Assembly: GCA_934247125.1 (NCBI GenBank)
Contig: CAKQIZ010000046.1
Span: 1 to 15,675, forward strand
Length of the DNA stretch: 15,675 bases
Reading direction: 5' to 3'
From: an uncultured Clostridia bacterium
GTDB lineage: Bacteria; Bacillota; Clostridia; Peptostreptococcales; Anaerovoracaceae
Shown: positions 652 to 14,644 of the stretch, one piece after another
Layout: each line of letters opens with the position of its first letter
How positions within the stretch are numbered: position 1 is the first letter of the stretch
Made by a program: the position numbers and the translations under genes
Notes under the pieces: model-generated
What the model was told of the DNA's origin: nothing
Database searches by the model: none
The model's input: only the letters and a program-made list of their open reading frames with translations

Positions 652-1674
652 TTACAAATTATCTTCACTCCAAAAGTTGCAGACTGTACCCGCATAGCTG
701 TAGAAATCAGAACACGACAGATCAAGATACAAAGCAGGGCGTATTGCAACGCCACTACAGTCGACATAAAACGCATCATATACACCTCCGTCATAATTGA
801 CAAATGCAGTATGATCAGTAATGCCCTGTGAACGGAGCCACCACCAGTAATACCCTACGCCAAAGTCCTCTTCATCACCATACATTGCTGTTACGAATGC
901 ACTGCCTTCACAGGCGCGGGCATAAGATGTATCGCAGACCTCTTCAAACCCGTATGAAACGGCTGTATCAGAGTTGCAAACTTCATTTTCCGATAGCAGA
1001 AATATCTTATCACCGTTATGATCGGTATCATTAATCACTTTTGTAGTTTTTATCGCACTACGTTCGTCGGATGTGAATGCATGGTTTATAAAATTCAGTT
1101 TTGTATAATCCTCAGTATTGCCATTGAAAGAGCTGTCATATCCATTAAGCCAGCTCCTCATGGTGCATGTCTCCCATGTCACACTTTCTCTTGTCATGTG
1201 ATAGCGCTGAGCGTCTACAGCCTTTTCCGACAACAACAAGGCATCATTCCCATTGACATTCAGTATGCGCCATTTAATGGGCTCGTACCTGAAGTACTGC
1301 ACAGTATCTTTATCCTCTCCAATACAATTGCTGTCTCCATTTTCCGCATCATTGATGTTAACCGTTCTTAGACGTCTGTACTTAATACCATCCACAACAG
1401 CATCACCACTCTCGTCATATGCGGCAACGATTATCTTATTCCACTGCGCACTGCTGACAGTAACATACTGTTTATCATAATCACTGTCGTTCAGTTCATT
1501 AATACGCAAGGTATCTGTTTCGCATACAACTTCTGACTGAGGGTAATTTCCGAACCATATGCAGTCCCAGGTCACTCTCTGTCCTGAATCGATTGATGCA
1601 TCTTCTACGATCCTAGGACTCTTCAGAGCAGGCATTACTTCAAGTTTCTCATATTTCATCTTATTCTTATCCAT
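652..1674 (-). CDS. DUF6273 domain protein (copy 1 of a tandem pair)
   Basis: 340 residues. The ATG at 1674 is preceded by AAGGAG six bases upstream. Residues 35-48 (TWDCIWFGNYPQSE) and 130-150 (EPIKWRILNVNG, then LLLSE) are the opening of the DUF6273 fold. Residues 166-178 (TWETCTMRSWLNG), about 193-203 (NFINHAF), 222-231 (DKIFLLSENE), WWWLRS near 277-282 and the closing IRPALYLDL (311-319) follow in the family order. From general knowledge, DUF6273 is common in Firmicutes and looks related to C-type-lectin/FGE-like folds used for binding. There is no signal peptide or membrane segment, so the protein is probably cytoplasmic, unlike many secreted family members. It lies 66 nt downstream of a clear paralogue and is the last gene of operon B. 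No catalytic residues can be assigned. Confidence 0.85.
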   Translation of the reverse strand: MDKNKMKYEKLEVMPALKSPRIVEDASIDSGQRVTWDCIWFGNYPQSEVVCETDTLRINELNDSDYDKQYVTVSSAQWNKIIVAAYDESGDAVVDGIKYRRLRTVNINDAENGDSNCIGEDKDTVQYFRYEPIKWRILNVNGNDALLLSEKAVDAQRYHMTRESVTWETCTMRSWLNGYDSSFNGNTEDYTKLNFINHAFTSDERSAIKTTKVINDTDHNGDKIFLLSENEVCNSDTAVSYGFEEVCDTSYARACEGSAFVTAMYGDEEDFGVGYYWWWLRSQGITDHTAFVNYDGGVYDAFYVDCSGVAIRPALYLDLSCSDFYSYAGTVCNFWSEDNL

Positions 1675-1740
1675 TACATTCTCCTTAGTGTATTTCTCTA
1701 ACTGATCTTGACAACTGTTATTATCATTTTTATTGCTTTT

Positions 1741-2820
1741 TTATAAATTATCTTCACCGCCATCACTGCTGACCGTCCCTGCATATCTGTATATGTTAGA
1801 GTATGAGAGATCAAGATGCAAAGCGGGTCGAACCGCGATACCTGTAAAATCAGCGCCAATGCCGCTATAGTGGTCATAGGCAGAGCCGTCATAGTCAACA
1901 CCAGCAGCTTCATCAATAACGCCTGGTGAACGGAGCCACCAGAAGCAGTTTTCCAAGTATTGGCTTTGTGAACAGCTCATCACTCCCATTGCCTTCGCAT
2001 ATGTGCTGCTTTTACATCTGCGTGCCTCGTCATCTGTACTGAGGCTTTTTACAAATCCGTATGGGAGTGCTGTACTTGAATTGCAGACCTCATTCTCCGA
2101 CAAAAGAAATATTTTATCGCTGGTATTATAGCAACCCTCGGTACCATAGACTATATTGTCGCTATTTATCACTTCTGTTATTTTTATCGCACTGCACTCG
2201 CTCGGTGTGAATGCAGCATTTATGAAGTTCTTATGGCTGTAATCCGTACCATGTCTGTTTACAGAAGAATCATACCCGTTTAACCAGCTCCTCATGGTGC
2301 ACGTCTCCCATGTCACACTTCCTTCATCTGCATTGTTGTATTTCTGATCATCAAGAGCCCTGTCTGCAACCAGGAATGCATCAGTTCCATTAACGTTAAG
2401 TACACGCCATTTGATAGGTTCGCACCTGAAATACCGTACGGTATCATCGCCCCACTCATAACAGTCGCCGTATTCGGATTCGATATCAACTGCATCTATC
2501 TTACTCAGGCGCCTGTATTTCACTCCATCTACCATGGCATCCCCGTAGTTGTCATATTCTGCACTTATAATCTTATCCCACTGTGCACTGCTGACAGTGA
2601 CATACTGGTGCTCATACGAACCGCCGATCAGCTCACTGATTCGGTCTTTATCAGTTTCACATACCACCTCTGACTGAGGATAGCTGCCGAACCAGATGCA
2701 GTCCCAGGTTACCTTCTGTCCAGATTCCATCGATGCATCTTCTGCAATTCTCGGATTTTTCAGGCACACCTCCATCTCCGGGCCCGTTTTCGACTCACTG
2801 CATACTCTTATCTCGGTCAT
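1741..2820 (-). CDS. DUF6273 domain protein (copy 2 of a tandem pair)
   Basis: 359 residues. The ATG at 2820 follows AAGGAG with a seven-base spacer. It keeps the same landmarks as the downstream copy: TWDCIWFGSYPQSE (38-51), EPIKWRVLNVNG (134-145), TWETCTMRSWLNG (170-182), DKIFLLSENE (235-244), FWWLRSPG (293-300) and VRPALHLDL (330-338). The two proteins share long identical stretches around these cores and differ most at 105-125, 215-232, 255-292 and 300-325. That is the pattern of a tandem duplication with divergence in loops. Even the sequence just after both stop codons is related (TATCTTCAC-type tails), which supports duplication. There is no signal peptide. The role is unknown; a ligand- or protein-recognition function is inferred from the fold class. 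Confidence 0.85.
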   Translation of the reverse strand: MTEIRVCSESKTGPEMEVCLKNPRIAEDASMESGQKVTWDCIWFGSYPQSEVVCETDKDRISELIGGSYEHQYVTVSSAQWDKIISAEYDNYGDAMVDGVKYRRLSKIDAVDIESEYGDCYEWGDDTVRYFRCEPIKWRVLNVNGTDAFLVADRALDDQKYNNADEGSVTWETCTMRSWLNGYDSSVNRHGTDYSHKNFINAAFTPSECSAIKITEVINSDNIVYGTEGCYNTSDKIFLLSENEVCNSSTALPYGFVKSLSTDDEARRCKSSTYAKAMGVMSCSQSQYLENCFWWLRSPGVIDEAAGVDYDGSAYDHYSGIGADFTGIAVRPALHLDLSYSNIYRYAGTVSSDGGEDNL

Positions 2821-3338: not shown

Positions 3339-4463
3339 TCATAATTCGTCACCGCCTTCCAGATACTCTTGTATCGCTCTTGTATATACTAAAAGAGATG
3401 AAGCAGCATGCTCATTGGCATCACTTTCGACACGCTGTGCGGCATAGGCATCGTATCCGTAGCTGTAAGCGTCCTTGTATTCGGAAAACTCCTTTATATA
3501 CTGCTCTGTTTTTCGGAAGCACATCAGTCTCCTGTCATCATCGCTAACTTTTTCGTAGAGTTCAATGAGCTGGTATGAATAGGCATGATATGCCTCGTGA
3601 CAGACTGTTCCTATCATTTTATATCCGTCGGCCTCAGACTCAAGGAACTTTTGATTGATTACTATTTCATGTCTGACCACAGAATAGTTTGCAACGGTAC
3701 GCTCTGCATTTTCCATATACTCGGAACCGACATTAAGCTCATGATTGATACCCAGACTAGTTCTTTCTAAATTCGCAACAGTCTGAAGCACATCAAGCTT
3801 TTCTTTCGTGGAAAGTGTTCTCCAGTCATCCGTTCCTGCCGCTGCGATTTTTTCTGTATAATCACTGAGTCTGTACTGTTCGGATGCCGATGCGGCTTTT
3901 ACATCAGGAAGATACATAGGCTGCCCTGTAATGGTTTTATAGGCGACAGGTACGAGAGTGAACAATGAGGCCAGTGCTGCCAGTACAAGGATAACAATCA
4001 AGATTTTCTTGCAGGAAACTACCCGGAAATTCACGCCTAGCTCTTTAGTTCTGTTTCTGCGTAAGGAGTATATTGTGTGGATAACCAGAATCAAGTAAGG
4101 AAGGCTCAGTACAATAAATATCACTGCAGATGCCTTCACATGTCCTGGCATATATACACGGTATGCCAGCATGGTATATATCCCTGCAGCATCAGTCATG
4201 CATACTCCCCGCAGAAAAAAGATGTGAATTCCCTCCAAATTCATTGGCAGAATCACAAATGCATCAACGGTCGCCATCACGGAAAATGCGAACAGCATTA
4301 TCATGACAGATATGCGGTATGTCGTGCCGCTGACAGGGTAAAAACACATGGTGTAATATATGTACATTGCCCAAGCATACCAGAAGGCAGTGACGGCGGT
4401 GTGAAGAGCTGTGGTTCTGAAATTATTTCCTGAATCCCTCTGCAAAATGTCTGGCTGCATCAT
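3339..4463 (-). CDS. Membrane-anchored gluzincin-type metalloprotease
   Basis: 374 residues. The N-terminal half is hydrophobic, with probable membrane segments near 20-40, 48-73, 112-133 and 152-175. The C-terminal half is soluble and carries HEAYH (His289, Glu290, His293), a zinc-binding HExxH motif within GTVCHEAYHAYSY. About 53 residues later ESDAN (Glu346) fits the third zinc ligand of gluzincins. It is therefore very likely an active membrane zinc peptidase; substrate and side of the membrane are unknown. Start: the ATG at 4463 follows AGGAAAGG at a normal distance. The gene begins inside the out-of-frame continuation of the ClpX-like gene (41-nt overlap if that continuation is translated), suggesting translational coupling between an AAA+-related protein and a protease. 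No family name beyond the zinc-peptidase clan is claimed. Confidence 0.75.
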   Translation of the reverse strand: MMQPDILQRDSGNNFRTTALHTAVTAFWYAWAMYIYYTMCFYPVSGTTYRISVMIMLFAFSVMATVDAFVILPMNLEGIHIFFLRGVCMTDAAGIYTMLAYRVYMPGHVKASAVIFIVLSLPYLILVIHTIYSLRRNRTKELGVNFRVVSCKKILIVILVLAALASLFTLVPVAYKTITGQPMYLPDVKAASASEQYRLSDYTEKIAAAGTDDWRTLSTKEKLDVLQTVANLERTSLGINHELNVGSEYMENAERTVANYSVVRHEIVINQKFLESEADGYKMIGTVCHEAYHAYSYQLIELYEKVSDDDRRLMCFRKTEQYIKEFSEYKDAYSYGYDAYAAQRVESDANEHAASSLLVYTRAIQEYLEGGDEL

Positions 4464-4559
4464 GTATATCGTCCTTTCCTATTTTGATAATCTGCTGTCC
4501 GTTCGAAGTATCGGCAGCGTCAAAGAATCTTTCATTTACTGCCTGTGAGAAAATGCTTC
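4423..4559 (-). pseudogene. Out-of-frame continuation of the ClpX-like gene
   Basis: After the G7 tract at 4572-4578, the frame reached by one extra G (or a -1 slip) reads GASGLRSIFSQAVNERFFDA and continues to a TAA at 4423-4425. This matches the ClpX sensor-2 region GARGLRSI and the helix after it, with Arg replaced by Ser. Its preservation suggests the break is recent, a sequencing error in a homopolymer, or a slippage switch. The last 41 nt overlap the start of the metalloprotease gene. Confidence 0.55.
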
Positions 4560-5054
4560 TCAGTCCTGACGCCCCCCCAGCCCCAGATTTTCAGCCTCTT
4601 CAGCGAGGCTGTCGGCCGTTTCGTCCGGTGAATCAATTTTAAGAAGTATATTGTTTATACTCAGAAAACGGGATACTTCATCAAGTATGCCGCTGTTGAT
4701 ATCCGTAAAGATTTTTCTGTAATCGCTGCAGGTAAGTCTGCGAACCGGTGCATATACTGAAATTCTCCTTGCTAACTCGGGAATCATTCCGAACTTTATG
4801 AAGTCATTGACACCGAAGTAAATGTCATTATCGGAGGGGCTGAACGAGATAATCAATTCATTGAAAGATGTCCCGACACATCCGTTTCCTGTGATTTCAG
4901 CCGCACTGCAGATTCTGTATGACTTGTTATCACCACTGCCGAAGCACTCTTCGGCACGAGCGTATTCCTCGCCTTTGTACACTACAGAATCCACAATGAG
5001 CATTACCTTGACGGATCTTCTTGGAACTATTAATCTTCTGATTTTAAACTTCAT
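4560..5054 (-). CDS. Small protein with the C-terminal part of a ClpX-like AAA+ module, cut at a G7 tract
   Basis: 164 residues as read. From about residue 83 the sequence follows ClpX closely: NDFIKFGMIPELARRISVY matches the ClpX segment around DLIKFGLIPEF.GRLPV. The helical lid subdomain follows (SDYRKIFTDINSGILDEVSR, then a stretch equivalent to EL.FTDEAL..IA). The Walker A and B motifs are absent: residues 1-82 are a different, unrecognised domain. The ORF ends in LGLGGRQD exactly where ClpX has its sensor-2 motif GARGLRS. One base of frameshift at the G7 run (4572-4578) restores GASGLRSIF and about 50 more residues. The ATG at 5054 sits about 18 nt after a predicted transcription start and has an AGGGG box, so the short N-terminus is probably native. 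It could be a regulator or adaptor rather than an ATPase. Confidence 0.6.
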   Translation of the reverse strand: MKFKIRRLIVPRRSVKVMLIVDSVVYKGEEYARAEECFGSGDNKSYRICSAAEITGNGCVGTSFNELIISFSPSDNDIYFGVNDFIKFGMIPELARRISVYAPVRRLTCSDYRKIFTDINSGILDEVSRFLSINNILLKIDSPDETADSLAEEAENLGLGGRQD

Positions 5055-5107: not shown

Positions 5108-5423
5108 GCCCTAAATCGTTGATTTTTCAGGCTTTTTCTTTAAACATTAACCTCAAACAAGCCGCCGAAAATGCATAACAGTCATTGTATCATGTACTGA
5201 ATAGCTGAAAATGAGTATGTTTAACAGATCGTCCTTATCTACTGATTTATTAAGGCTATAATTCCTCTGTTCGGCTATGCTGGTGAAGCTTCCGTGTCTA
5301 ATGGTATCGTGTGCCAACTTCCCTCGTCCCACCTGTTTATACACTGAGTGCCGGCGAAGCTTTCAAACAGGATCGTGCCCTAAGGTATATAACTTTTCTT
5401 CATGGCTTTGTTCTCCTTTCAAT
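5108..5423. other. Scar region with a broken reading frame; no intact gene seen
   Basis: On the minus strand an AAAGGAGA box precedes an ATG at 5403 that reads MKKSYIP and then stops. The same frame reopens as GTILFESFAGTQC and continues to a stop at 5275-5277. This could be the 5' end of a gene destroyed by rearrangement next to the 188-bp repeat. An overlapping 63-codon frame (5153-5344) has no ribosome binding site and no recognisable motif. Confidence 0.3.
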
Positions 5424-5611
5424 TCATTGCTGAATTTCTTTTCGCTTATAATAGTGAATCTTTTTTCATTTATCGGGAGTTACTCTTAAAAAAATTTAAT
5501 ATTCTTTTCATGGTGTCTCCTCACGATAACTTGCAGACATTAAATACAAGAATTGATTTATACGAAAATTTGCGTCAATCTCTTAGCAGCATTTGTTTAT
5601 CTTTACGATTT
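5424..5611. repeat. 188-bp direct repeat, copy 1
   Basis: This block matches 12207-12394 in the same orientation over 188 bases with no net gap and only about a dozen differences. It ends against the decayed IS110 transposase remnant. It is probably the end of an older mobile element or a repeat mobilised with one. On its minus strand it carries a 13-codon ORF (5470-5511) behind a GAGGAG box. Together the two copies bracket operon A. Confidence 0.9.
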
Positions 5612-5644
5612 CTGCAAGGTCATCTTCATTTGAAATGCCAGATT

Positions 5645-6220
5645 TCATGGGATATCTCTGAGATCCGGCATCTCGAAGCTTCCGTCTTCCACAAGATTTG
5701 CTATCAGTTTCGGATCCTTTGTATCATCCTTCATCTGGCTGTTGGCCTCAATTTCCTTTGTTTGTTATACCGCATATGGATTTACCTGTACCACACTGAT
5801 TCCGTTTGAAATCATCCATGTCGCAATGCAGAGCCAATAGTGTCCTATCGGTTCCAGCACCATGATTATCTGGTTCTTGTCGTTCGCTGCAGCAAGTTTA
5901 ACAGCCCATTGTTTTGCACTTCTGAATCCCTCGGATGTGTTGCTGAATGGAAATGCTGTCCTGCTGAGTTCTCTGCCTCTGGTATCAATCGCTCTCAGAT
6001 AATGCGTCTCACTGCCTACATTGCATCCTAATATGAGCATATCCTCACTGATAAATGAGAGCTTCGCATTTTTATCAAATTTCCCATTGCTTTCCAGTTC
6101 ATGCCAGGTAAAGGATGGCAGATTGTTTATGATTACCTCCACTTTCTTCATAAGCTCCTGCTGTTCAAAAATATTTGCTGCTGATACTTGATTTTTCTTC
6201 TTTGTGCCTTTAACATTCAT
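5645..6220 (-). pseudogene. IS110-family transposase, truncated and decayed
   Basis: The frame from 6220 reads 151 residues to a TAA at 5765-5767. It has the IS110 N-terminal order: a GCNVGSETH segment (65-73), a FSNTSEGF segment (92-99), VLEPIGHYW (121-129) and VQVNPYAV (144-151). Beyond the TAA the same frame continues with QTKEIEANSQ, then DPKLIANLVEDG, as expected for the family, up to a TGA at 5645-5647, so the first stop is a point mutation (AAA to TAA). The first catalytic Asp of the DEDD set (normally in G.DV) is Asn67 here, while Glu123 is present. The C-terminal Tupase_20-like half is missing, cut off near the 188-bp repeat. No mobility is expected. Confidence 0.85.
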
Positions 6221-6360: not shown

Positions 6361-6573
6361 TCATCCTAAACCTTTCACTCGGGAAGGGGGGCAGACAATC
6401 CTCTTTCCTGTTTTGATGTATCGAAAATACCGATCAGACAAATAATGCGCAACTTTTTGAATCTCTTCCAATTTCCTTATCGGTTGGGCACAGTCAATAT
6501 TAAGACAACCATTACAATGTTTTCTCCGATTTGAATCAAGATGTGCTATAGGGGTATTCCACTCACGTGCCAA
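6361..6573 (-). pseudogene. 3' part of a split relative of the 147-aa E2-like protein
   Basis: 70 residues if a TTG at 6573 is used. It has no ribosome binding site of its own and overlaps the stop of the upstream 75-codon ORF by 11 nt in a different frame. The core is a Cys cluster (CNGCLNIDC) followed by PIRKLEEIQKV, then YFRYIKTGKR. The latter aligns with the end of the 147-aa protein (PVNSLSDMQTI, then IQEYIATGKR). I read it as the second half of a frameshifted paralogue, though an independent small Cys-rich protein cannot be excluded. It is the last recognisable piece of operon A before the IS110 scar. Confidence 0.45.
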
Positions 6574-6790
6574 GTATCAGGTCGCCTAAAACGTATGTTC
6601 GACATCTTCCTTCAAGATACACATATTTGAAAATAAATTTTCTGTCCTTACAAAAGGCTTTCAGATGTGATACCCCATGTAAGTTCACGACTTTCAGATT
6701 CGCAAAATATGTTTCAGTCATCGTTCCGATAACATTTCCACCTGTGTAAACTCTTAGGTTCACCTTATCAGCCTCCTCTAAGAATTCCAT
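6563..6790 (-). CDS. Small protein of unknown function, 75 aa; probably 5' part of a split gene
   Basis: 75 residues from an ATG at 6790, 20 nt after the stop of the 147-aa gene, with only a weak GAG upstream. Residues 47-68 (CKDRKFIFKY, then EGRCRTYVLG) resemble the segment of the 147-aa protein around residues 68-88 (DREYRFNYKK, then NGSWRAYILR). Joined by one frameshift to the following 70-codon frame, it would give a protein aligning with most of the soluble part of that neighbour but without its membrane anchor. The residues before that (LRVYTGGNVIGTM) have a beta-rich look with no match I recognise. It may be translated alone; function unknown. Confidence 0.45.
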   Translation of the reverse strand: MEFLEEADKVNLRVYTGGNVIGTMTETYFANLKVVNLHGVSHLKAFCKDRKFIFKYVYLEGRCRTYVLGDLILGT

Positions 6791-6810
6791 TGATACTCAA
6801 CACAATTCGA

Positions 6811-7254
6811 TTATCCAAATCTTTTGCCTGTAGCAATATATTCTTGAATATTATCAGCCCATACTCGTGATATTGTTTGCATGTCGCTCAGTGAATTTAC
6901 CGGACTATCCCAGCATACATATGGTTTAGAGCCATCCCAGAGTCTGTGAGTTGCATGTCCATCTGTCGAACGGTTTCCCAGGCTAGGCATTCGGAGTATA
7001 TAAGCTCTCCATGATCCGTTTACTTTTTTATAATTGAAACGATACTCTCTATCCTTGCCACCATGCCTATCATTTGCATAGTAGACCATTGGACCCGTTT
7101 CATTTTTTTGAGAAAGCGGCACCACTCTTGTCTGCTGTGGTGTCGTTCTTTGTGTTGTCTCGGCAGGTCTTGCTGGGGTCTCCTTTGTTCGACTGCAATA
7201 TATAAGTATGCCAGCAACTACCATCACTACTCCTGCTACAATCCATCCTGTCAC
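6811..7254 (-). CDS. Membrane-anchored small protein with E2-like H..H...C motif (candidate conjugating factor)
   Basis: 147 residues from a GTG at 7254, chosen because TAAGGAGGT lies seven bases upstream and overlaps the stop of the preceding gene. Residues 4-20 are a single membrane segment with no charged residues, and 21-50 are a Thr/Pro/Gln-rich linker. The globular part (67-147) includes YRFNYKKVNGSWRAYILRMP, then His100-x-x-His103, a Gly at 108 and Tyr-Val-Cys114-Trp-Asp. The His to Cys spacing of about 11 recalls E2 ubiquitin-conjugating enzymes (HPN...G.ICL). The end (ISRVWADNIQEYIATGKRFG) is a helix that is repeated in the neighbouring split ORF. In an operon with an E1-JAB fusion an E2 is expected, and this is the best candidate. 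The E2 call is inference; no family name is claimed. Confidence 0.6.
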   Translation of the reverse strand: MTGWIVAGVVMVVAGILIYCSRTKETPARPAETTQRTTPQQTRVVPLSQKNETGPMVYYANDRHGGKDREYRFNYKKVNGSWRAYILRMPSLGNRSTDGHATHRLWDGSKPYVCWDSPVNSLSDMQTISRVWADNIQEYIATGKRFG

Positions 7255-7267
7255 TTATAACACCTCC

Positions 7268-7567
7268 TTAATACAAGCACTTCAAGCTTCTTAAAAACTC
7301 TTTCATATCTGTGAAATCCAGAAATCTTACTGTTCCAATCGCAAGCCAGTCTTTAAAAAGAGCCGGTGCCTGATTGTTGCTGCAAGAAATACCTTTATCG
7401 ATAAAGAGGGCATATGTATTCTCCTCCTTTTCAAAACCGATTCTGGCGATATTCTTGCTGCAAGCTCCTGGCAGATAACAGCGCGAATACACATGGCAAA
7501 GATGATCTTCAAGGGATTCTTTCAGTAATTCGTACTGATGATCACTTCCATATACAAATTCCTTCAT
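7268..7567 (-). CDS. Stand-alone copy of the AAA+ N-terminal domain, 99 aa
   Basis: 99 residues. The ATG at 7567 follows TAGGAGG. It aligns end to end with residues 1-98 of the AAA+ protein (10814-9462). Shared positions include M-x-EF-x-x-G-x-D, CHVYxxCxLPxxC, IARIGFE, a Tyr-x-Leu-x-IDKGI block, FK, a RF block and FLRxL at the end. Three Cys (24, 30 and 35/36) are kept in both and could bind a metal or form a thiol centre. I do not recognise the domain. A free copy beside an unfoldase carrying the same N-domain suggests an adaptor, decoy or competitor for the same partner. It sits between the JAB-E1 gene (111 nt upstream) and the E2-like gene (13 nt downstream). Confidence 0.75.
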   Translation of the reverse strand: MKEFVYGSDHQYELLKESLEDHLCHVYSRCYLPGACSKNIARIGFEKEENTYALFIDKGISCSNNQAPALFKDWLAIGTVRFLDFTDMKEFLRSLKCLY

Positions 7568-7678
7568 ATCTCGTTCCTCCTAACATATTATGATTTCATC
7601 TACAATGATACTTGAACCCCTTTGACGATTTGCTGGAGGGGAAGCCCCTAAAGGCCTCCACCACCCACTACGTATACC

Positions 7679-9451
7679 TTAGGCAGTCTGATCGGCATAA
7701 TTGCTTGCCACCGAATTAGCGGTCACTTCCTCCATCTTGATATTTCTTGTGTCCGGCCATTTCATATGAAGGTCTTCCAGATGACCTGTACCGCCACAAA
7801 GTTTACAGGTTTCATATCCGTTTGATGGATGATCCGGTTTCTGCGGAATCCAGACTGTTTCATCCATAAATGTATATCGTTCGGCCCCTGTAAACACTCT
7901 GTCAAAAATACCGATACCCAGCACATCCCTTACATTAGGATTCAATCTGATCTGTACAAAGTTTCGATCTTTGACGCTGTCGAGCATATCGCTGAATGCA
8001 TTGCCCGGTGCCTCATGATACATCAGCAGCATGAGAGCAATATATCCTTTCAGTGCATTCATTCTCTCAGTTGCAAAAATAGTACAAGCAGATGAGTCAA
8101 CATCATTTTCAAATCCATTCTCATACTTTTCGAATCGACTGCCAAGAAGGCATCTCGGACAGCTCTCTGTTACTCCTGGATACACGAAGATGAGTTCAGC
8201 AGCAGCACCTGCTTTATACATCATTGCTGCAAGATACGGAGTACCATACTTTAATGCAAGGATAGAGCTTCTTTTCTGCGCTTCGAAGTTATCCGTACAT
8301 CCCAAAATCAGATAGTCGGTAGGTTTTCTTCCAGGAAACATGTCCATGTAGGACTTAAACTCTTCATCAGACATATCGTCATCAAGGAAACGATCAACGC
8401 ATACAACTTTTGCATCAGGATTAATGTCCAGAATACGCTGGCGGATAACATCAACCTTCTTTTTACCCATCTCACTGATGAAGACTCCCTGTGTAGCAAC
8501 ATTTGACGGGCTTACAATATCAGCATCCATAAGAATATAATTTCTGAAGCCGCTTCTTGCAAAATTCTCAAGTGCACTTCTTGCGCCACCAGTACCAATG
8601 CAGATGATCACCTTATCAAGAACATTATCCGGATATAAGCCCTGCACCTTAGTAAAGTAATCATTGCTCTCTACGGCTCTTCTCATAACACTCTCCTCCT
8701 GACTTGTAATGGTAGTAACATTGAGGCCATCTACCTTCTTTTCTTCCGCTTCTGCATGTCTTTCTTCCTGGCGGTTAATGCCATCACGATATGCATCCAA
8801 CTGTTTGATTGAATAATTCTGACTCCACTTTTTAAATGAAGCATATACATAGCCGTCTTCGTTGGCTTTAAGTACATATTCCAAATTAACATTCAGGCAA
8901 TCATCTTCCTGACGCACCACATAGAAGTACATAGTGTAAAATCCTCTTCTTTCATTCTGGATAATCGGGAGATAGAAGTAATCCAGTTCGAAGAATCTCA
9001 GGTGAAGAAGCGCTGTAGAAATATCATGGTAGGATGGGCGAACGCATCCAATCGGATGAGAATGGTAAATACCATTTGTCACAAATCCATTGGCCTTCCA
9101 TGCCCTAAACACTTCAGACATAGACTCGACATCATAGTAAAAGGTGCCTGATGTATTTCTTGAGTGAACATCAAAGTAACACTCATCAATTAAGTTTGGA
9201 TCCGTCTTTGATGCAAGCATACCACCTGTTTCAGCTCTGTACTTTCCTACATTTCTTCTGAAATCATCCAGCACTTTAGTCGAGAATTTAATTGTCTTAT
9301 TAGGAATCCCTTTTTCCTGCATTGCCTCCATTGTTTCTTCCTCCTCCATCAGATCTTCGTCATAGTCACAGCTAAAGCAGCTCATTACCGAATCTAAACC
9401 ATCGGCTACTCTTGTAAGTCCATTCTCAATCAACTTTACTACTCGTCTCAT
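7679..9451 (-). CDS. JAB/JAMM isopeptidase fused to ThiF/E1-like adenylyltransferase
   Basis: 590 residues from the ATG at 9451. This start is preferred over the one at 9490 because TAAGGAGG, overlapping the AAA+ stop, lies five bases before it. Residues ~58-185 are a JAMM metalloprotease: Glu74, then HSHP (His130, His132) followed after seven residues by Ser140 and Asp143, an exact HxHx7SxxD zinc site. A charged linker (~220-245) leads to the E1 domain: GTGGARS at 286-292 (nucleotide loop), MDADIVSPSN (308-317), Lys330-332, CTDN (385-388), CPRC (431-434) and CKLCGG (549-554) as the usual paired zinc cysteines, and Cys456 (SSACTIFATER) as a possible thioester Cys. Such fusions activate a C-terminal Gly of a ubiquitin-like protein and also process or remove it. 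All active-site residues look intact. It is cytoplasmic. Confidence 0.92.
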   Translation of the reverse strand: MRRVVKLIENGLTRVADGLDSVMSCFSCDYDEDLMEEEETMEAMQEKGIPNKTIKFSTKVLDDFRRNVGKYRAETGGMLASKTDPNLIDECYFDVHSRNTSGTFYYDVESMSEVFRAWKANGFVTNGIYHSHPIGCVRPSYHDISTALLHLRFFELDYFYLPIIQNERRGFYTMYFYVVRQEDDCLNVNLEYVLKANEDGYVYASFKKWSQNYSIKQLDAYRDGINRQEERHAEAEEKKVDGLNVTTITSQEESVMRRAVESNDYFTKVQGLYPDNVLDKVIICIGTGGARSALENFARSGFRNYILMDADIVSPSNVATQGVFISEMGKKKVDVIRQRILDINPDAKVVCVDRFLDDDMSDEEFKSYMDMFPGRKPTDYLILGCTDNFEAQKRSSILALKYGTPYLAAMMYKAGAAAELIFVYPGVTESCPRCLLGSRFEKYENGFENDVDSSACTIFATERMNALKGYIALMLLMYHEAPGNAFSDMLDSVKDRNFVQIRLNPNVRDVLGIGIFDRVFTGAERYTFMDETVWIPQKPDHPSNGYETCKLCGGTGHLEDLHMKWPDTRNIKMEEVTANSVASNYADQTA

Positions 9452-9461
9452 AAATACCTCC

Positions 9462-10814
9462 TTATGCGATTTCAAACTCGATTGCACCAATTGTTCCCTT
9501 CAATGCGACCGATTTATCTCTTAGTGTCTCCAGTCGTCTTTCTCTCAAGAGATGCTCTCCAATAGCATCACTGACAAGATCTCGGATTCCTCTTGCTCCG
9601 TATTTTGTCTGATGCTTTAAGAAATCAAGCATTAATCCTTCATCAATTCGCACCAGTCGAAGCTCATAGTTTTTGAGTTCTTCCTTTACAAACTTGGCTA
9701 CAATATCCATGGTTGCAGTGTCAGAAAGTTCATTGAAAACAATAAAGTTTCCAATCTTACCGCTGATTTCCGGTCTACCACAGTGCTTTGTGAATTGATC
9801 CCTACACATCTCTGCTTTCTCAAACTTAGATAACTTCTGGTATCTATCCATATCGATTGGAATGTTTGAGGTAAAAAACAGGATGCATTCGTTCAAGTCA
9901 ATCGGTTTTGAATTATCTGCCATCCCCAGGAAACCGGTGTCAATAGCTTCCATTAATCCAGTAAGCAGCTTTGTGTCAGCCTTCTCGATTTCGTTAATTA
10001 CAACCACGTGCTTTTTGTTTTTTCTGACAGGTTCTAAAACCGTATCGTTACCAAAACCTACATACCCAGGAGGCGCTCCGAAGAATCTATGAACAGTATG
10101 TTCACCTACGAACTCACTTCCTGCAATCTCGATGTAACCATACGGAGTTTCATATACATTACTAAGAACATCAGCCAGTGATTTCGCCGTTTCAGATTTA
10201 CCGGTTGCTGTCGGGCCGATCAGCGCCATTACCAAAAGCTTCTTTTCCTTCCTCATTTTGTTGATCACAATCTTGTTGGCGATTTCATCGATTACATTAT
10301 CCTGTCCAAACACCTTTTGCTTGAGAGGTGCCGCAATCTCCTCAGGCCAAACCATCTTAGGAACCTCTTCTTCCTCCTTGAGTGCTTTTACTTTTGAGGG
10401 ATCGTAAACAGGATCCTCGGATACAGGTTCTGCAGTTTTATATAAACAAGACTTCGCCCCATTATTCAGCTGACTCTCACTACCATGATGCGTACTTATA
10501 TCCACAGAACAGGGACTCTCAAAAAGGGGCTGTAATCCGCGAAGGAAACAGATCATATCATCCATACAAATGAATCTGATTTCACCATTCTCAATAAAAT
10601 TCTTAAAATCGGAATGATCCGTCTCGGCACAAATGCCCTTGTCAATATACAGGATATAATGTCCGTTGCAGTTCTGCTCAAATCCAATTCTTGCGATTTT
10701 TGGAGTGCAGCATTCCGGAAGGATACAACCGTTATATACGTGACACTGATTATCCAATAACTGCTGCTCCAGTTCGTTAAACTGCTGATCTGTTCCAAAT
10801 GCAAATTCTCTCAT
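9462..10814 (-). CDS. ClpA/ClpB-D2-like AAA+ ATPase with a novel N-terminal domain
   Basis: 450 residues; the ATG at 10814 follows GGGAGG. Residues 1-98 are a separate domain found again in the 99-aa protein downstream. About 100-155 is a low-complexity linker. From ~156 a single AAA+ module of the Clp D2 class follows: Walker A GPTATGKS (200-207), pore loop GAPPGYVG (246-253), Walker B VVINE (271-275), sensor 1 TSN (315-317), GRPEISGK (346-353), and sensor 2 YGARGIRDLV (405-414). It should be a protein unfoldase feeding or dismantling targets. Two oddities: the Walker B Asp is Asn274, and the Arg-finger position of ClpB (RPEFLNR) is Lys353. No obvious ClpP-docking IGF loop is seen. The stop overlaps the ribosome binding site of the JAB-E1 gene, so the two are translationally coupled. 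Confidence 0.9.
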   Translation of the reverse strand: MREFAFGTDQQFNELEQQLLDNQCHVYNGCILPECCTPKIARIGFEQNCNGHYILYIDKGICAETDHSDFKNFIENGEIRFICMDDMICFLRGLQPLFESPCSVDISTHHGSESQLNNGAKSCLYKTAEPVSEDPVYDPSKVKALKEEEEVPKMVWPEEIAAPLKQKVFGQDNVIDEIANKIVINKMRKEKKLLVMALIGPTATGKSETAKSLADVLSNVYETPYGYIEIAGSEFVGEHTVHRFFGAPPGYVGFGNDTVLEPVRKNKKHVVVINEIEKADTKLLTGLMEAIDTGFLGMADNSKPIDLNECILFFTSNIPIDMDRYQKLSKFEKAEMCRDQFTKHCGRPEISGKIGNFIVFNELSDTATMDIVAKFVKEELKNYELRLVRIDEGLMLDFLKHQTKYGARGIRDLVSDAIGEHLLRERRLETLRDKSVALKGTIGAIEFEIA

Positions 10815-10832
10815 CTCATTTTTCCTCCCATA

Positions 10833-11063
10833 TTAATTGGCTACTGCACCAATGATTGCCAATACGATAGCTACTACAATACCCCAGCAAATGAATGAAG
10901 CAATTGCTTCAGCTACCGGGACAATCAACACACCTCCACACAGCAATCCTGCCGATGATCCTATGCTTCCCCAAATAGTTTGTCTCTTACATATGAACCA
11001 TACTGCAAAGGCTGCGTATCCTATGATCAAAGCAATTGCTGTAATATGAATAAACCCATCCAT
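10833..11063 (-). CDS. Small integral membrane protein, 76 aa
   Basis: 76 residues. The ATG at 11063 is preceded by GAGGAGGG. Nearly the whole protein is hydrophobic, with segments at about 5-24, 35-52 and 55-74 separated by one short basic turn (CKRQT, 25-29). That gives two or three membrane spans. There are no catalytic motifs. It lies 18 nt upstream of the AAA+ gene and is on the same transcript, so it may anchor the complex at the membrane, like the N-terminal span of the 147-aa protein. Small membrane proteins of this kind cannot be assigned by sequence inspection; a holin-like or pore role is also possible. Confidence 0.7.
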   Translation of the reverse strand: MDGFIHITAIALIIGYAAFAVWFICKRQTIWGSIGSSAGLLCGGVLIVPVAEAIASFICWGIVVAIVLAIIGAVAN

Positions 11064-11141
11064 ATCATCCCTCCTCTCAACTCAATACCTGAAACCTTCT
11101 CATGAATAACCTTTCCTAATAACGTCTCAAATATTGAGTCG

Positions 11142-11267
11142 TTACGGTAATTCATCTACAGCCTTATAATAAGGCCCTGAATTACCAGAAGGGCAGGGGG
11201 GAGCATTAGGCATATTTTGTGCCTGAACAGCAGAAACATTGCACATTTTAAATGTTTTCTTAATCAA
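11142..11267 (-). CDS. Small peptide gene, 41 aa, TTG start
   Basis: An open frame with a strong ribosome binding site (GGGAGGTGAT, four to five bases before a TTG at 11267). It begins MIKKTFKMCNVSAVQAQ, continues NMPNAPPCPSGN, and ends GPYYKAVDELP. It lies 46 nt after the repeat-protein stop and 78 nt before the membrane-protein start, on the operon strand. Features: basic N-terminus, two Cys (9 and 25), a Pro/Gly/Asn-rich middle and an acidic end. It is the right size for a peptide substrate or RiPP-like precursor, or for a small structural partner. An internal ATG (residue 8) is possible but worse placed. No homologue recognised. Confidence 0.6.
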   Translation of the reverse strand: MIKKTFKMCNVSAVQAQNMPNAPPCPSGNSGPYYKAVDELP

Positions 11268-11313
11268 AAAATCACCTCCCGACTACCGAATAACGCCTGC
11301 AAAGACAGGTCCG

Positions 11314-11904
11314 TTAGTGGAAACCGCCACCTGGGAGCGTCTCCTTCTGTTCACCTCCATGGAAGCCACCGCCCGGGAGCGTCTCCTTCTGTTCACCTCC
11401 GTGGAAGCCACCGTCCGGAAGCGTCTCCTTCTGCTCGCCTCCGTGGAAGCCACCGCCCGGAAGCGTCTCTTTCTGCTCGCCTCCGTGGAAGCCACCGCCC
11501 GGAAGCGTCTCTTTCTGCTCGCCTCCATGGAATCCGCCGCCCGGAAGCGTCTCTTTCTGCTCGCCTCCATGGAATCCGCCGCCCGGAAGCGTCTCCTTCT
11601 GTTCACCTCCGTGGAAGCCACCGCCCGGAAGCGTCTCCTTCTGCTCGCCTCTGTGGAAGCCACCGCCCGGAAGCGTCTCTTTCTGCTCGCCTCCATGGAA
11701 TCCGCCGCCCGGAAGCGTCTCTTTCTGCTCGCCTCCATGGAAGCCACCGCCCGGAAGCGTCTCTTTCTGCTCGCCTCCGTGGAATCCGCCACCCGGAAGC
11801 GTCTCTTTCTGCTCGCCTCCAAAGAAACCTCCACCAGGAAGCATTTCACGCTGGTTCATGTTGTTATTGATTACATTCTGATTACCCATATTCATATTCT
11901 TCAT
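11314..11904 (-). CDS. Tandem-repeat protein, 14-residue GEQKETLPGGGFHG units
   Basis: 196 residues from the ATG at 11904, which has AAGGAG upstream; an earlier in-frame ATG at 11949 lacks one. Residues 1-17 are a Met/Asn-rich leader (MKNMNMGNQNVINNNMN). Then come a divergent first unit (QREMLPGGGFFG) and 12 units of GEQKETLPGGGFHG, the last ending at His before the stop. Only two residue changes occur across the 12 (one Gly to Arg, one Gly to Asp), while many codons differ synonymously, which implies selection on the peptide. It should be disordered and has no signal peptide. Each unit offers one Lys and a Gly-Gly-Gly. As the second gene of an operon with E1, JAB and AAA+ genes, it is a candidate substrate, scaffold or polymeric modifier. 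Other options: structural/adhesive repeat protein or multi-core peptide precursor. Confidence 0.85.
   Translation of the reverse strand: MKNMNMGNQNVINNNMNQREMLPGGGFFGGEQKETLPGGGFHGGEQKETLPGGGFHGGEQKETLPGGGFHGGEQKETLPGGGFHRGEQKETLPGGGFHGGEQKETLPGGGFHGGEQKETLPGGGFHGGEQKETLPGGGFHGGEQKETLPGGGFHGGEQKETLPDGGFHGGEQKETLPGGGFHGGEQKETLPGGGFH
11317..11853 (-). repeat. 42-bp tandem repeat array, 12 full copies plus one divergent
   Basis: Twelve 42-bp units (11317-11817, the last one base triplet short) and one diverged 36-bp unit (11818-11853) lie entirely inside the coding frame. Units differ mainly at third codon positions (for example CCATGG/CCGTGG, CTCC/CTCT, TTCAC/CTCGC on the + strand). Copy number could change by recombination without breaking the frame. 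Confidence 0.95.
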
Positions 11905-11970
11905 AGAATTATTCTCCTTCATATTTGTTTTATATTGCATTATTGTCATCTCGATCCTAAAAACAAACTC

Positions 11971-12165
11971 CTAATTACTTGAAAGCCAACACCTCCCTAT
12001 AAAGTCAAGTGGTTTTTCCTTGAAAATCACAGACACGATTGCCTTCGGCACAGTCTTTGCTTTCGCTCCATTGCTCGCATCTTCAAACTGAGGATCTCCA
12101 GCTCTTTCGATGGTACCGTCGTCATCGATAACGAGGTTTTCGCCCGACGTGAGCATGTCTCTCAT
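11971..12165 (-). CDS. Short protein of unknown function, 64 aa, possibly 5'-truncated
   Basis: An ATG at 12165 has GGAG nine bases upstream, but the frame stays open back to a stop at about 12203, next to the edge of the 188-bp repeat copy 2. It may therefore be the tail of a longer gene cut by that element. The start-proximal part is acidic (ENLVIDDDGTIERAGDPQFE), followed by a basic stretch (NGAKAKTVPKAIVSVIFKEK) and a short end (GRCWLSSN). I do not recognise it. It is first in the direction of transcription of operon A, 66 nt before the repeat-protein start, so the native operon may have extended further upstream. Confidence 0.45.
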   Translation of the reverse strand: MRDMLTSGENLVIDDDGTIERAGDPQFEDASNGAKAKTVPKAIVSVIFKEKPLDFIGRCWLSSN

Positions 12166-12206
12166 TTTCTGAATCTCCGAGTCAGCAGATACACTTGAAT
12201 TTTACA

Positions 12207-12394
12207 TCATTGCTGAATTTCTTTTCGCTTATAATAGTGAATCTTTTTTCATTTATCGTGATTTATTCTTAAAAAAATTCAATATTTTTTTCATGGTGTC
12301 TCCTCACGATAACTTGCAGACACTAAATACAAGGATTGATTTATACGAAAATTTGCGTCAATCTCTTAGCGGTGTTTGTTTATCTTTACGATTT
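12207..12394. repeat. 188-bp direct repeat, copy 2
   Basis: Same length and orientation as 5424-5611. On the left it abuts the possibly truncated 64-aa ORF and on the right a transposase C-terminal remnant. The minus strand again has a GAGGAG box and an intact 13-codon ORF (12253-12294, MKKILNFFKNKSR). The differing flanks of the two copies show that the block ends near these coordinates. Confidence 0.9.
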
Positions 12395-12543
12395 CCGTCA
12401 ACAAACAACAAAGCCGAACGGCTGCTTCGCGCATACAAGCGAAAACAGAAGCAGACAATGCCATTCCGAAGCTTTGAAAGCATCTAGGCTTTGTGCAGTG
12501 GCATGATCGTGCTGTGTTTGTTGCGCCGGGATATGGATCCATC
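12395..12543 (+). pseudogene. C-terminal remnant of an IS66-like transposase
   Basis: The + strand reads PSTNNKAERLLRAYKRKQKQ, then MPFRSFESI and a TAG at 12485-12487, after which the frame continues for a few residues (ALCSGMIVLCLLRRDMDPS). The (S/T)NN.AER.LR core is the region around the third catalytic acid of IS66 transposases. It differs from the intact TnpC next door, so it is an older element. The intact IS66 copy has inserted just after it. Confidence 0.65.
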
Positions 12544-12615: not shown

Positions 12616-14196
12616 CTACCTGCTGGCATTCTCCTTCATAAATTCAGACCACGGAAGCATATCCTCGAGATATTCGGTAGTATGATCCCAGTCAGCCATG
12701 TTATGCAGTAGAAGTTCCAGGTAACGGTACGGCTCAAGATTATTGGCCTTGGCTGTTTCGATAACGCTGTATATTCCAGCTGATGCATCAGCTCCTTTAG
12801 GGCTGTCTGCGAAGAGCCAGTTCTTGCGTCCGACTACGAATGGTCTGATGGCATTTTCGGCCGCATTGTTTGAAAGCGACAGTCTGCCGTCCAGGAGATA
12901 ATTCTCCATGCAAGGTTTCTGATTGGCAGAATAAGCAACTGCTTTGCCCAGTTTGCTGCCAGGCAGTGCATTCACCGTTTCAAGCCACGACCAAAATGCC
13001 TCCAGAACAGGCTTTGCAAGTTCAAGACGCTTGATGTATCTATCTTCAGGACTCATGTCCTTAAGTTCATCTTCAATTTTGAAAAGCCTGTCGCAGTATC
13101 CTACGCCGATCTGCGCTTGCGAACCATTTGACCCCGAGGCTTTTACTTTCGGGATGGCTTCCACAAACTTTCGTCTGAGGTGTGCCCAGCATCCGCACCT
13201 TGTAACTTCAGTCAGTTTGTTGTATCCCGAAAATCCATCGGAATGAACGAACCCTCTGAAGTCCTTCAGGTAGGCAGCGGCATTGTCACCGCTTCTCGAA
13301 GGCTGGTAGTCATACATTATGATAGGCACTTTGTCGTCATTTCCTGTTCTGTAGACCCACATGTATGACTTGCTCTGTGCTTCCTTTCCATCCTCCTTGA
13401 GGACCTGAACAGGAGTTTCGTCTGCATGGACGATATCTCGAGAAAGCATCTGATTTCTCATGTATTCAAGCACAGGACTGAGATACTCTTCATGACATCT
13501 GATCACCCAGTTTGCCATCGTTGTTCTTGAAAGCTGTATGCCCATTCGCTCCCATTCCTTTTCAAGGCGGTAGAGCGGGATGCCCTGTACATATTTCTGA
13601 TACATGACATAGGCAACAGAACTTGGTGATGCAAGTGAATGATCAAGAAGTGATGGCGGTGCAACAGTCCTTATGATAACAGGCTTGTCTGTATGCTTGC
13701 ACTTAGGACATTCATATGCGATACGCATATATCTGATTACCCTGAGACTCGAAGGTATGTATCTGATCTCATCTCTGACAAATGTCTTGCCGATAGGTTT
13801 AAGTCCAGTGCCGCAGATATCACAGAACTGATCATCTTCTTCAAGCTCGATCAGGTATTCTTCTACAGGAATGTCATCCATAATCATGTCCTTACGAGTA
13901 CGTTTGCTGTTCTTTGTCACTTTGCCTTTGGCATCGGCTACGAACGGTTCATCAGATACCGGAGGTGCAACCTCGATCTCAACTTCGTTGAAAATTGACA
14001 ACTGATCAGGAAGAACGCCAAGCTTCTTCTCGCTGGATGGACCATATTTATCGTGACGCATCTGAAGTATCGCCTCAGTAAGATTTGATACCTGGCGAGT
14101 AAGATCGTCTATCGACTTCTGAAGGGCAAGAATAGTGCTTCCTTTTGCAGAAAGTTCTTTCCTAAGTTGTTCAATGAGTAATTTATCGGCGTTCAT
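12616..14196 (-). CDS. tnpC: IS66 transposase TnpC (DDE)
   Basis: 526 residues, full length for the family. An N-terminal coiled coil (about 5-45) is followed by a linker and zinc-finger cysteines (FCDICG at 124-129, YECPKCKH at 161-168). The catalytic core has Asp259 (HADETP), Asp320 (HSDGFSGY) and Glu447 (SNNAAENAIRPF), and the C-terminus has the LEPYRYLELLL motif (487-497). The ATG at 14196 has an AAAGGA box. It cuts and joins the IS ends. It follows tnpB on the same strand, separated by about 95 nt. Confidence 0.95.
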   Translation of the reverse strand: MNADKLLIEQLRKELSAKGSTILALQKSIDDLTRQVSNLTEAILQMRHDKYGPSSEKKLGVLPDQLSIFNEVEIEVAPPVSDEPFVADAKGKVTKNSKRTRKDMIMDDIPVEEYLIELEEDDQFCDICGTGLKPIGKTFVRDEIRYIPSSLRVIRYMRIAYECPKCKHTDKPVIIRTVAPPSLLDHSLASPSSVAYVMYQKYVQGIPLYRLEKEWERMGIQLSRTTMANWVIRCHEEYLSPVLEYMRNQMLSRDIVHADETPVQVLKEDGKEAQSKSYMWVYRTGNDDKVPIIMYDYQPSRSGDNAAAYLKDFRGFVHSDGFSGYNKLTEVTRCGCWAHLRRKFVEAIPKVKASGSNGSQAQIGVGYCDRLFKIEDELKDMSPEDRYIKRLELAKPVLEAFWSWLETVNALPGSKLGKAVAYSANQKPCMENYLLDGRLSLSNNAAENAIRPFVVGRKNWLFADSPKGADASAGIYSVIETAKANNLEPYRYLELLLHNMADWDHTTEYLEDMLPWSEFMKENASR

Positions 14197-14290
14197 TTTG
14201 CATCCTTTTCTTAGCTTTTTAACTAAGAAAATTACACCACAAAATGCACCGAAAAGCCAGTGACTTCAACGATTTCGGGCTGTTTTGTCA

Positions 14291-14644
14291 CTAATATATA
14301 CTGCCGATTTTTGCAGCTCTGACCTTTTTCTGCTCGATCTGAAGACCTTCCATAAGCCAGCGAAACTGCTGCCAGGTGATGGGCATGAGTTCTTCTTCGG
14401 TACGAGGCCACTGGAACTTGCCGTTCTCCAGTCTTTTGTAGAGGAGAAGGAAACCATCGCCTTCCCAGAGAAGTGCTTTTATCCGATCGCACCTTCTGCC
14501 GCAGAAGATGAAAAGAGACGGTTCTAAGGGATCCATTTCAAATCTGCTTTGGACCAGAGTCGCAAGATCATCGATAGACTTACGCATATCGGTGTATCCG
14601 CATGCAATGTATATCTTCTCGGCAATGGTTATATCGCCTAGCAT
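14291..14644 (-). CDS. tnpB: IS66 accessory protein TnpB
   Basis: 117 residues with the family landmarks IYIACGYTDMRKSIDDLA (residues ~11-28), FIFCGRRCDRIKALLWEGDG and WPRTEEE. The ATG overlaps the tnpA stop (ATGCTAG), so translation is coupled. It is needed for IS66 transposition, but its exact biochemical role is not known to me. Confidence 0.95.
   Translation of the reverse strand: MLGDITIAEKIYIACGYTDMRKSIDDLATLVQSRFEMDPLEPSLFIFCGRRCDRIKALLWEGDGFLLLYKRLENGKFQWPRTEEELMPITWQQFRWLMEGLQIEQKKVRAAKIGSIY

Follow-up and report, generated by a model that had tools for sequence, protein, structure and literature searches.

The 15,675-nucleotide stretch analyzed here, hereafter the window, comes from an uncultured Clostridia bacterium of the Anaerovoracaceae (contig CAKQIZ010000046.1 of assembly GCA_934247125.1; positions refer to the forward strand) and carries on its minus strand a candidate ubiquitin-like (Ubl) conjugation operon that includes an unfoldase and a repeat peptide. 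Read 5' to 3', the operon encodes the repeat peptide, a 41-residue open reading frame (ORF), a 76-residue membrane protein, an AAA+ ATPase, a fusion of a JAMM domain with an E1 enzyme (JAMM-E1), a 99-residue protein, and a membrane-anchored protein of 147 residues, after which come two short overlapping ORFs (Table 1). Ribosome-binding sites precede the 76-residue membrane protein, AAA+, JAMM-E1, 99-residue, and 147-residue genes. An earlier note made from this sequence had proposed such an operon. Its observation is confirmed, and its interpretation is supported in part: the neighbourhood is conserved in other genomes, the 147-residue protein gives an E2-like structure model at a middling Z-score, and the E1 domain has its ATP-site residues, the three points on which the note had stated in advance that it could fail. 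The gene set, its order, the conserved catalytic residues, the E2-like model, and a conserved peptide are shown by the present analysis.

Table 1. Features of the operon and a further gene in the window
Feature	Position	Strand	Remarks
LPxGxF repeat peptide gene	11314..11904 (ORF opens 11949)	-	196 aa from likely start ATG 11904
RNA hairpins 3' of the peptide gene, before the enzyme genes	11120..11200	-	fold z -3.48
41-aa ORF	11142..11267	-	TTG start, good Shine-Dalgarno; doubtful gene
76-aa membrane protein	10833..11063	-	48% identity to L002 and 47% to L004 counterparts
Clp-family AAA+ ATPase (N-terminal domain, residues 1-99)	9462..10814	-	PF07724, 4.9e-19
JAMM-E1 fusion	7679..9451 (ORF opens 9490)	-	590 aa from ATG 9451; PF00899, 1.2e-19
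99-aa free copy of AAA+ N-domain	7268..7567	-	44% identity to AAA+ residues 1-98
Membrane-anchored E2-like protein, 147 aa	6811..7254	-	His103/Cys114
Overlapping pair of ORFs (75 aa, 70 aa)	6361..6790	-	may be a second, decayed E2-like gene split over two frames
Membrane protein, weak SprT-like match	3339..4463	-	relative downstream of L002 operon, 32% identity, 1e-29

Conservation and distribution of the operon

Of the six loci yielded by a scan of genome contigs, four are clearly related: L001 and L002 in Lachnospiraceae metagenome-assembled genomes (MAGs), L003 in a Eubacterium MAG, and L004 on a 4-kb contig filed under Rikenellaceae. L002 encodes a transmembrane protein, AAA+, JAMM-E1, N-domain, E2, a zinc/membrane protein, and a HerA-like ATPase in this order; L004 follows the same order from the transmembrane protein to E2, where the contig ends, and L001 reads AAA+ (cut), JAMM-E1, N-domain, E2. 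In L003, JAMM-E1 is followed by the N-domain, two E2s, the zinc/membrane protein, and a HerA-like protein, with other sequence and no AAA+ in the upstream region. More distant is a compact form, found by a family-wide search in genome G264 (L016) and by scans of viral contigs (L022 and L043), which has the order soluble E2, JAMM-E1, AAA+ and, by eye, MT-A70 methylase-like and TraG-like neighbours; the JAMM-E1 proteins of L016 and L022 share 36% identity with that of the window. Gene order is conserved across the window, L002, and L004, is retained in part by L001 and L003, and is also conserved in the three compact loci. The co-occurrence of AAA+, JAMM-E1, 99-residue domain, and E2-like protein in conserved order, which the earlier note had put forward for checking, was thus found in other genomes, with L003 lacking the AAA+.

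Despite this conservation, the system is rare. At the thresholds used, E1 matches occurred in 2 of 397 family genomes, in 1/392, 1/200, and 1/150 genomes of other sets, and in 1/3, 2/47, 2/47, 1/5, and 1/344 of further ones; these sets have genomes in common and contain the query genomes as well, and the sole genome newly found by the rarity scans was G264. Since so few genomes have matches, the conjugation system is accessory, and its patchy distribution together with its TraG-type neighbours suggests that it is probably mobile.

Catalytic features of the encoded proteins

In the JAMM-E1 protein, the JAMM domain is fused at the N-terminal side of an E1 whose ATP-site residues and catalytic cysteine are all present (GxGG, R312, D324, N330, K345, D400, and C469), with Thr in place of the Arg of the E1 motif SNxxRQ. 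A database search returned 411 matches, and among the best 120 E1 relatives listed the JAMM motif is found in 118, the cysteine of C[TP]IFATE in 118, and GxGGAR in all 120. The JAMM motif, GxGGAR, two CxxC motifs, and C469 are conserved. Matches of the window E1 and AAA+ to PADLOC profiles indicate no more than a relationship to known defence genes. In L001, the region of the JAMM-E1 N-terminus (1111-1821, partly read as N) and the E2 linker (3881-4744) each have tandem repeats of their own.

An E2-like fold of the 147-residue protein is suggested, at a middling Z-score, by its predicted structure, which is matched best by CdnG-E2 (8hsb, 8yjy); by title, 26 of the 50 listed rows of fold matches are E2 or UEV domains. 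Its putative active-site pair, H103 and C114, is invariant in 34 of 34 aligned sequences. The E2s of the compact loci are soluble proteins of 112-123 residues with no membrane helix by eye. The membrane association proposed by the earlier note was thus not borne out as a rule.

For the window AAA+, the best NCBIfam model is ClpA (5.6e-34, 117 bits, far under the full-length cut-off). Its Walker A reads GPTATGKSE and its sensor FTSN, while its Walker B is INE, with N for D relative to the usual DE; the same substitution is present in L001 and L004, and L002 has D. Following the (R)PE stretch, window-type proteins have Lys where compact forms have Arg. A further distinction concerns an IGF loop after sensor 1, presumably the ClpP-docking loop as in Clp proteins: the compact AAA+ proteins carry RKIGF (L016 and L022) or NPIGF (L043, where HMMER aligns the loop over a GF-containing stretch of ClpC), whereas no IGF-type insertion occurs in the AAA+ of the window, L001, L002, or L004. 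The earlier label of a ClpA-type protein accordingly holds by family but not for this loop. Because the compact branch keeps the loop that window-type proteins lack, a link to ClpP is plausible in that branch; a ClpP gene (PF00574, 1.3e-47) lies upstream of the L002 peptide. The free 99-residue N-domain is found in L001-L004, and its predicted model had no clear fold match. A CxLPxxCxP-like core is common to the AAA+ of the window, L002, L004, and the compact loci.

The LPxGxF repeat peptide

The window peptide consists of 12 full 14-residue units, mostly LPGGGFHGGEQKET, and ends in LPGGGFH. Other loci support the membership of this repeat protein in the system, as the earlier note had supposed, since a peptide of this kind is present at every readable operon head (window, L002, L016, and L043), with a peptide tail in L022 as well. 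L002 has a 58-residue ORF with the same repeats immediately before its membrane-protein gene, in which a single full LPxGxF unit accompanies a first unit CPGGFHGG and a tail LPKVHVF. In L016, a 27-residue ORF with LPVGIFNGGREGQELPSGVFC and a strong ribosome-binding site stands directly ahead of the E2 gene, and the upstream remnant in L022, where the contig is cut, ends in LPIGVFC-stop. These peptides led to the prediction of one in L043, a locus retrieved through its AAA+ alone, and a 27-residue ORF with LPDGTFRGGRQGELPPGTFR was then found at the predicted place. In G001, the repeat pattern runs off the end of contig 68, while the operon begins another contig (L001), which the end of contig 68 presumably adjoins.

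Across 364,974 bases of loci, many of which overlap, matches to the double motif LPxGxF...LPxGx[FW] are confined to the peptide genes found in the window, G001, G264, and L043; the motif does not cover the L002 peptide or the truncated one in L022. Of 397 family genomes, only the one that carries the window-type operon has a codon pattern for GGFHGGEQ. A looser codon pattern occurs in three of the five operon genomes (G001, with one extra chance match, G002, and G264); of the two negatives, the G003 contig has no operon head and the G004 contig starts near the membrane-protein gene.

A database search with the first 110 residues of a 211-residue reading of the peptide, in which scoring was restricted to the 7990 candidates with the most words in common, gave 198 matches at E <= 0.01, some of which may be unrelated in function. 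The statistics that follow rest on the 120 matches listed. They contain 463 units, counted by a pattern that itself fixed positions 1-6 as LPGGGF-like; positions 7-11 are H in 382, G in 360, G in 342, E in 382, and Q in 371, and the last three positions are variable. GG comes after LPxGxF in most units. Six relatives end in ETLPGGGFH, other tails being LPTGFWI, LPTGCWI, LPTGAWD, and LPNGAWI, and some are longer (e.g. GVDWFFV). Two unusual arrangements were also encountered: P0348, a database protein in which LPGGGFHGG repeats are joined to sequence of the 99-residue N-domain, is a fusion, deletion product, or chimera, and the P0245 group comprises repeat peptides with a long, strand-rich-looking C-terminal extension (WQKVTLLLENGERADVLI...).

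Stable hairpins lie 3' of the peptide gene, with fold z-scores of -6.65 in L002, -4.17 in L043, and -2.59 in L016 beside the -3.48 of the window; these values lean high because the stretches were chosen after the folds had been viewed. The hairpins are probably attenuator- or terminator-like and may allow the first-encoded peptide to be made in excess over the enzymes.

Possible function of the system

We think it quite possible, if short of probable, that the operon encodes a rare and probably mobile system for conjugation, with the LPxGxF peptide as the modifier, or a processed partner, of JAMM-E1, E2, and AAA+. The JAMM domain would cleave behind the Gly in LPxG, separating units and taking the last three residues off the peptide. 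It must presumably expose a Gly because, in the cyclic oligonucleotide-based antiphage signaling system (CBASS), a protein without a beta-grasp fold is conjugated by an E1/E2 protein through a C-terminal Gly or Ala, the place where the JAB protein Cap3 cuts (excerpts of PMC10097602). The E1 would then adenylate the new peptide end, load the peptide on its crossover cysteine (C469), and hand it to Cys114 of the E2, which, membrane-tethered in the window branch, would attach it to targets; the JAMM domain might also remove attached peptide. Tagged proteins would be read through the N-domain of the AAA+ and unfolded, and the compact-branch AAA+ could feed the products to ClpP, with the free 99-residue N-domain possibly a receptor or a brake. 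A modifier role is opposed by the encoded peptide end, as there is no C-terminal Gly acceptable to an E1: the window peptide ends in His and Gly is terminal in only 3 of the 120 listed relatives, so the Gly-ended modifier of the earlier note was not borne out.

Several known systems come close to this one. Type II CBASS, with Cap2 (E2-E1) and Cap3 (JAB), likewise applies E1, E2, and JAMM to a partner without a beta-grasp fold, and the window E2-like model is closest, at a middling fold match, to CdnG-E2; in the window, however, E1 is fused to JAMM rather than E2, and a Clp AAA+ and the peptide are added. No nucleotidyltransferase, as the CD-NTase of type II CBASS would be, appeared among the Pfam matches of 19 window proteins, a scan that left smaller ORFs and the other loci outside its scope. 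Fusions of JAB and E1 with E2-like partners are already known as type 6e; according to passages of Iyer et al. 2006 (PMC1779556), these share the N-terminal JAB on E1, the E2/RWD-like partner, and a sporadic distribution, but they come with between one and three Ubl repeats, and their E2 is inactive. In contrast, the window system keeps H and C in its E2, has no recognised Ubl (there was no Pfam Ubl match, as for a beta-grasp protein, in the small window proteins scanned), and adds the AAA+ and the LPxGxF peptide. Bil operons (BilABCD) share E1, E2, JAMM, and a processed modifier, yet BilA contains two Ubl domains, as described in parts of PMC11354881, as opposed to a low-complexity peptide of 27 to about 200 residues. 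Ubl-conjugation genes with AAA+ partners in conflict systems are also known (excerpts of PMC7159879). A literature search limited to one library found no description of the present gene combination.

The usual partner of E1/E2/JAMM systems is a folded Ubl; the exception known to us is CBASS, where a CD-NTase is conjugated. It is conceivable, though we hold it with some doubt, that the system is a bacterial ubiquitin-proteasome analogue, in which JAMM cuts a non-beta-grasp LPxGxF tag of minimally 27 residues, E1 and E2 move it, and a Clp unfoldase able to dock ClpP reads it; the tandem peptide arrays of one branch would then be comparable to polyubiquitin. Pup with the Mpa/ARC proteasome similarly pairs an unfolded small tag with an AAA+ unfoldase, but Pup is joined by PafA and not by E1, E2, or JAMM. 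If the analogy is true, the peptide would be the smallest E1/E2-transferred tag that we know of, and peptide, E2, JAMM-E1, and unfoldase would form a minimal tag-and-unfold pathway, four genes being enough to test it. Such a pathway would answer two questions: can E1 and E2 use a short unfolded peptide as a modifier, and does ubiquitin-like tagging supply Clp proteolysis in bacteria?

An unlikely alternative is a pathway for a ribosomally synthesized and post-translationally modified peptide (RiPP), in which the peptide would be a precursor with a short leader and one or many cores, the E1-like domain would activate its carboxylate as microcin C/ThiF-like enzymes do, the E2-like protein would be an acyl carrier or cyclase, JAMM the maturation protease, and AAA+ an immunity or quality-control factor. 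The tiny precursor, its leader-like N-terminus, the variable unit number, and the hairpin after the gene are consistent with this, and microcin C-type clusters similarly combine a tiny precursor with a ThiF-like enzyme and, in some cases, ClpA homologs (parts of the review PMC12250964). However, no E2 or JAMM is described there, and neither "JAB" nor "E2 enzyme" occurs as a term in that review; furthermore, no exporter is found among the 19 Pfam-scanned window proteins or, by eye, beside the compact operons, and the ClpP-docking loop is hard to fit.

Less probable still is conjugation of the E2-like protein itself, like the CD-NTase C-terminus in CBASS, through its GKRFG end, bare or JAMM-trimmed (from extensions such as PE and PQ), with the peptide only regulating or recruiting. 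Among the 120 matches listed, the FG end is exact in 60, followed by a short extension in 53, and neither in 7; L003 encodes one E2 of each kind, bare and extended, and a C-terminal Gly or Ala is required in CBASS conjugation (PMC10097602, in part). Despite this, the compact E2s have no Gly end, and the conserved Gly may be structural. Similarly improbable is a peptide acting as recognition tag or scaffold, whose units bind the AAA+ N-domain and its 99-residue copy to cluster or trigger the unfoldase while E1/E2/JAMM serve a chromosomal modifier: the duplicated N-domain, the recurrent CxLPxxCxP-like core, the multivalency suggested by the arrays, and P0348 speak for it, but a 27-residue peptide with two LPxGxF motifs is a meagre scaffold and no other modifier was found in the loci, to which the search was confined.

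Genomic surroundings

The L002 operon is preceded by genes for a kinase that also has a nuclease domain resembling Card1 (Pkinase 2.4e-16; Card1 1.3e-9), for RyR, for ClpP, and for a TraG-type ATPase. Downstream, a protein with weak similarity to SprT is joined by proteins that by eye resemble KptA, DUF4062, and TIR. These surroundings are a large conflict island, from which the window retains the SprT-like relative (PF10263 scores below cut-off in both proteins); taken together, the island genes and this relative suggest a candidate role in defence or inter-element conflict. The PADLOC profiles matched by the L002 kinase and HerA-like proteins are again those of known defence genes to which these proteins are only related. 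In G001, the gene directly upstream of the peptide also encodes a protein that combines a kinase with a Card1 domain. Two genomes have such a large kinase ahead of the peptide operon, with the Card1-like nuclease domain near the C-terminus (L002 992-5410 and L035 551-5050).

Within the window, the 41-residue ORF, which the earlier note had counted among the parts of the operon, has no match in the other loci searched and is doubtful as a gene of the system. The ORF pair at 6361..6790 is possibly, but doubtfully, a decayed E2-like copy; searched separately against an E2 profile, the second piece scored 13.0 bits and the first gave no match. No tRNA genes or Rfam families were found in the window at threshold. 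By Pfam, IS66 genes are located upstream of the operon (12616-14644, with an adjoining 124-residue ORF without match) and an IS110 transposase fragment downstream (5765-6220). A 196-nucleotide direct repeat, 93% identical, lies on either side of the operon (5417-5612 and 12200-12395), and excision of the intervening 6.8 kb could occur between the copies. The nearby ORFs 5402-5809 and 12293-12487 have a stretch in common, and the latter weakly matches IS66 transposase. Elsewhere, L023 (MT836827), filed as phage, has an E1-like stretch adjoining a large FtsK-like ATPase that by eye resembles EccC of type VII secretion, and window positions 652-2820 encode a tandem pair of DUF6273 proteins.

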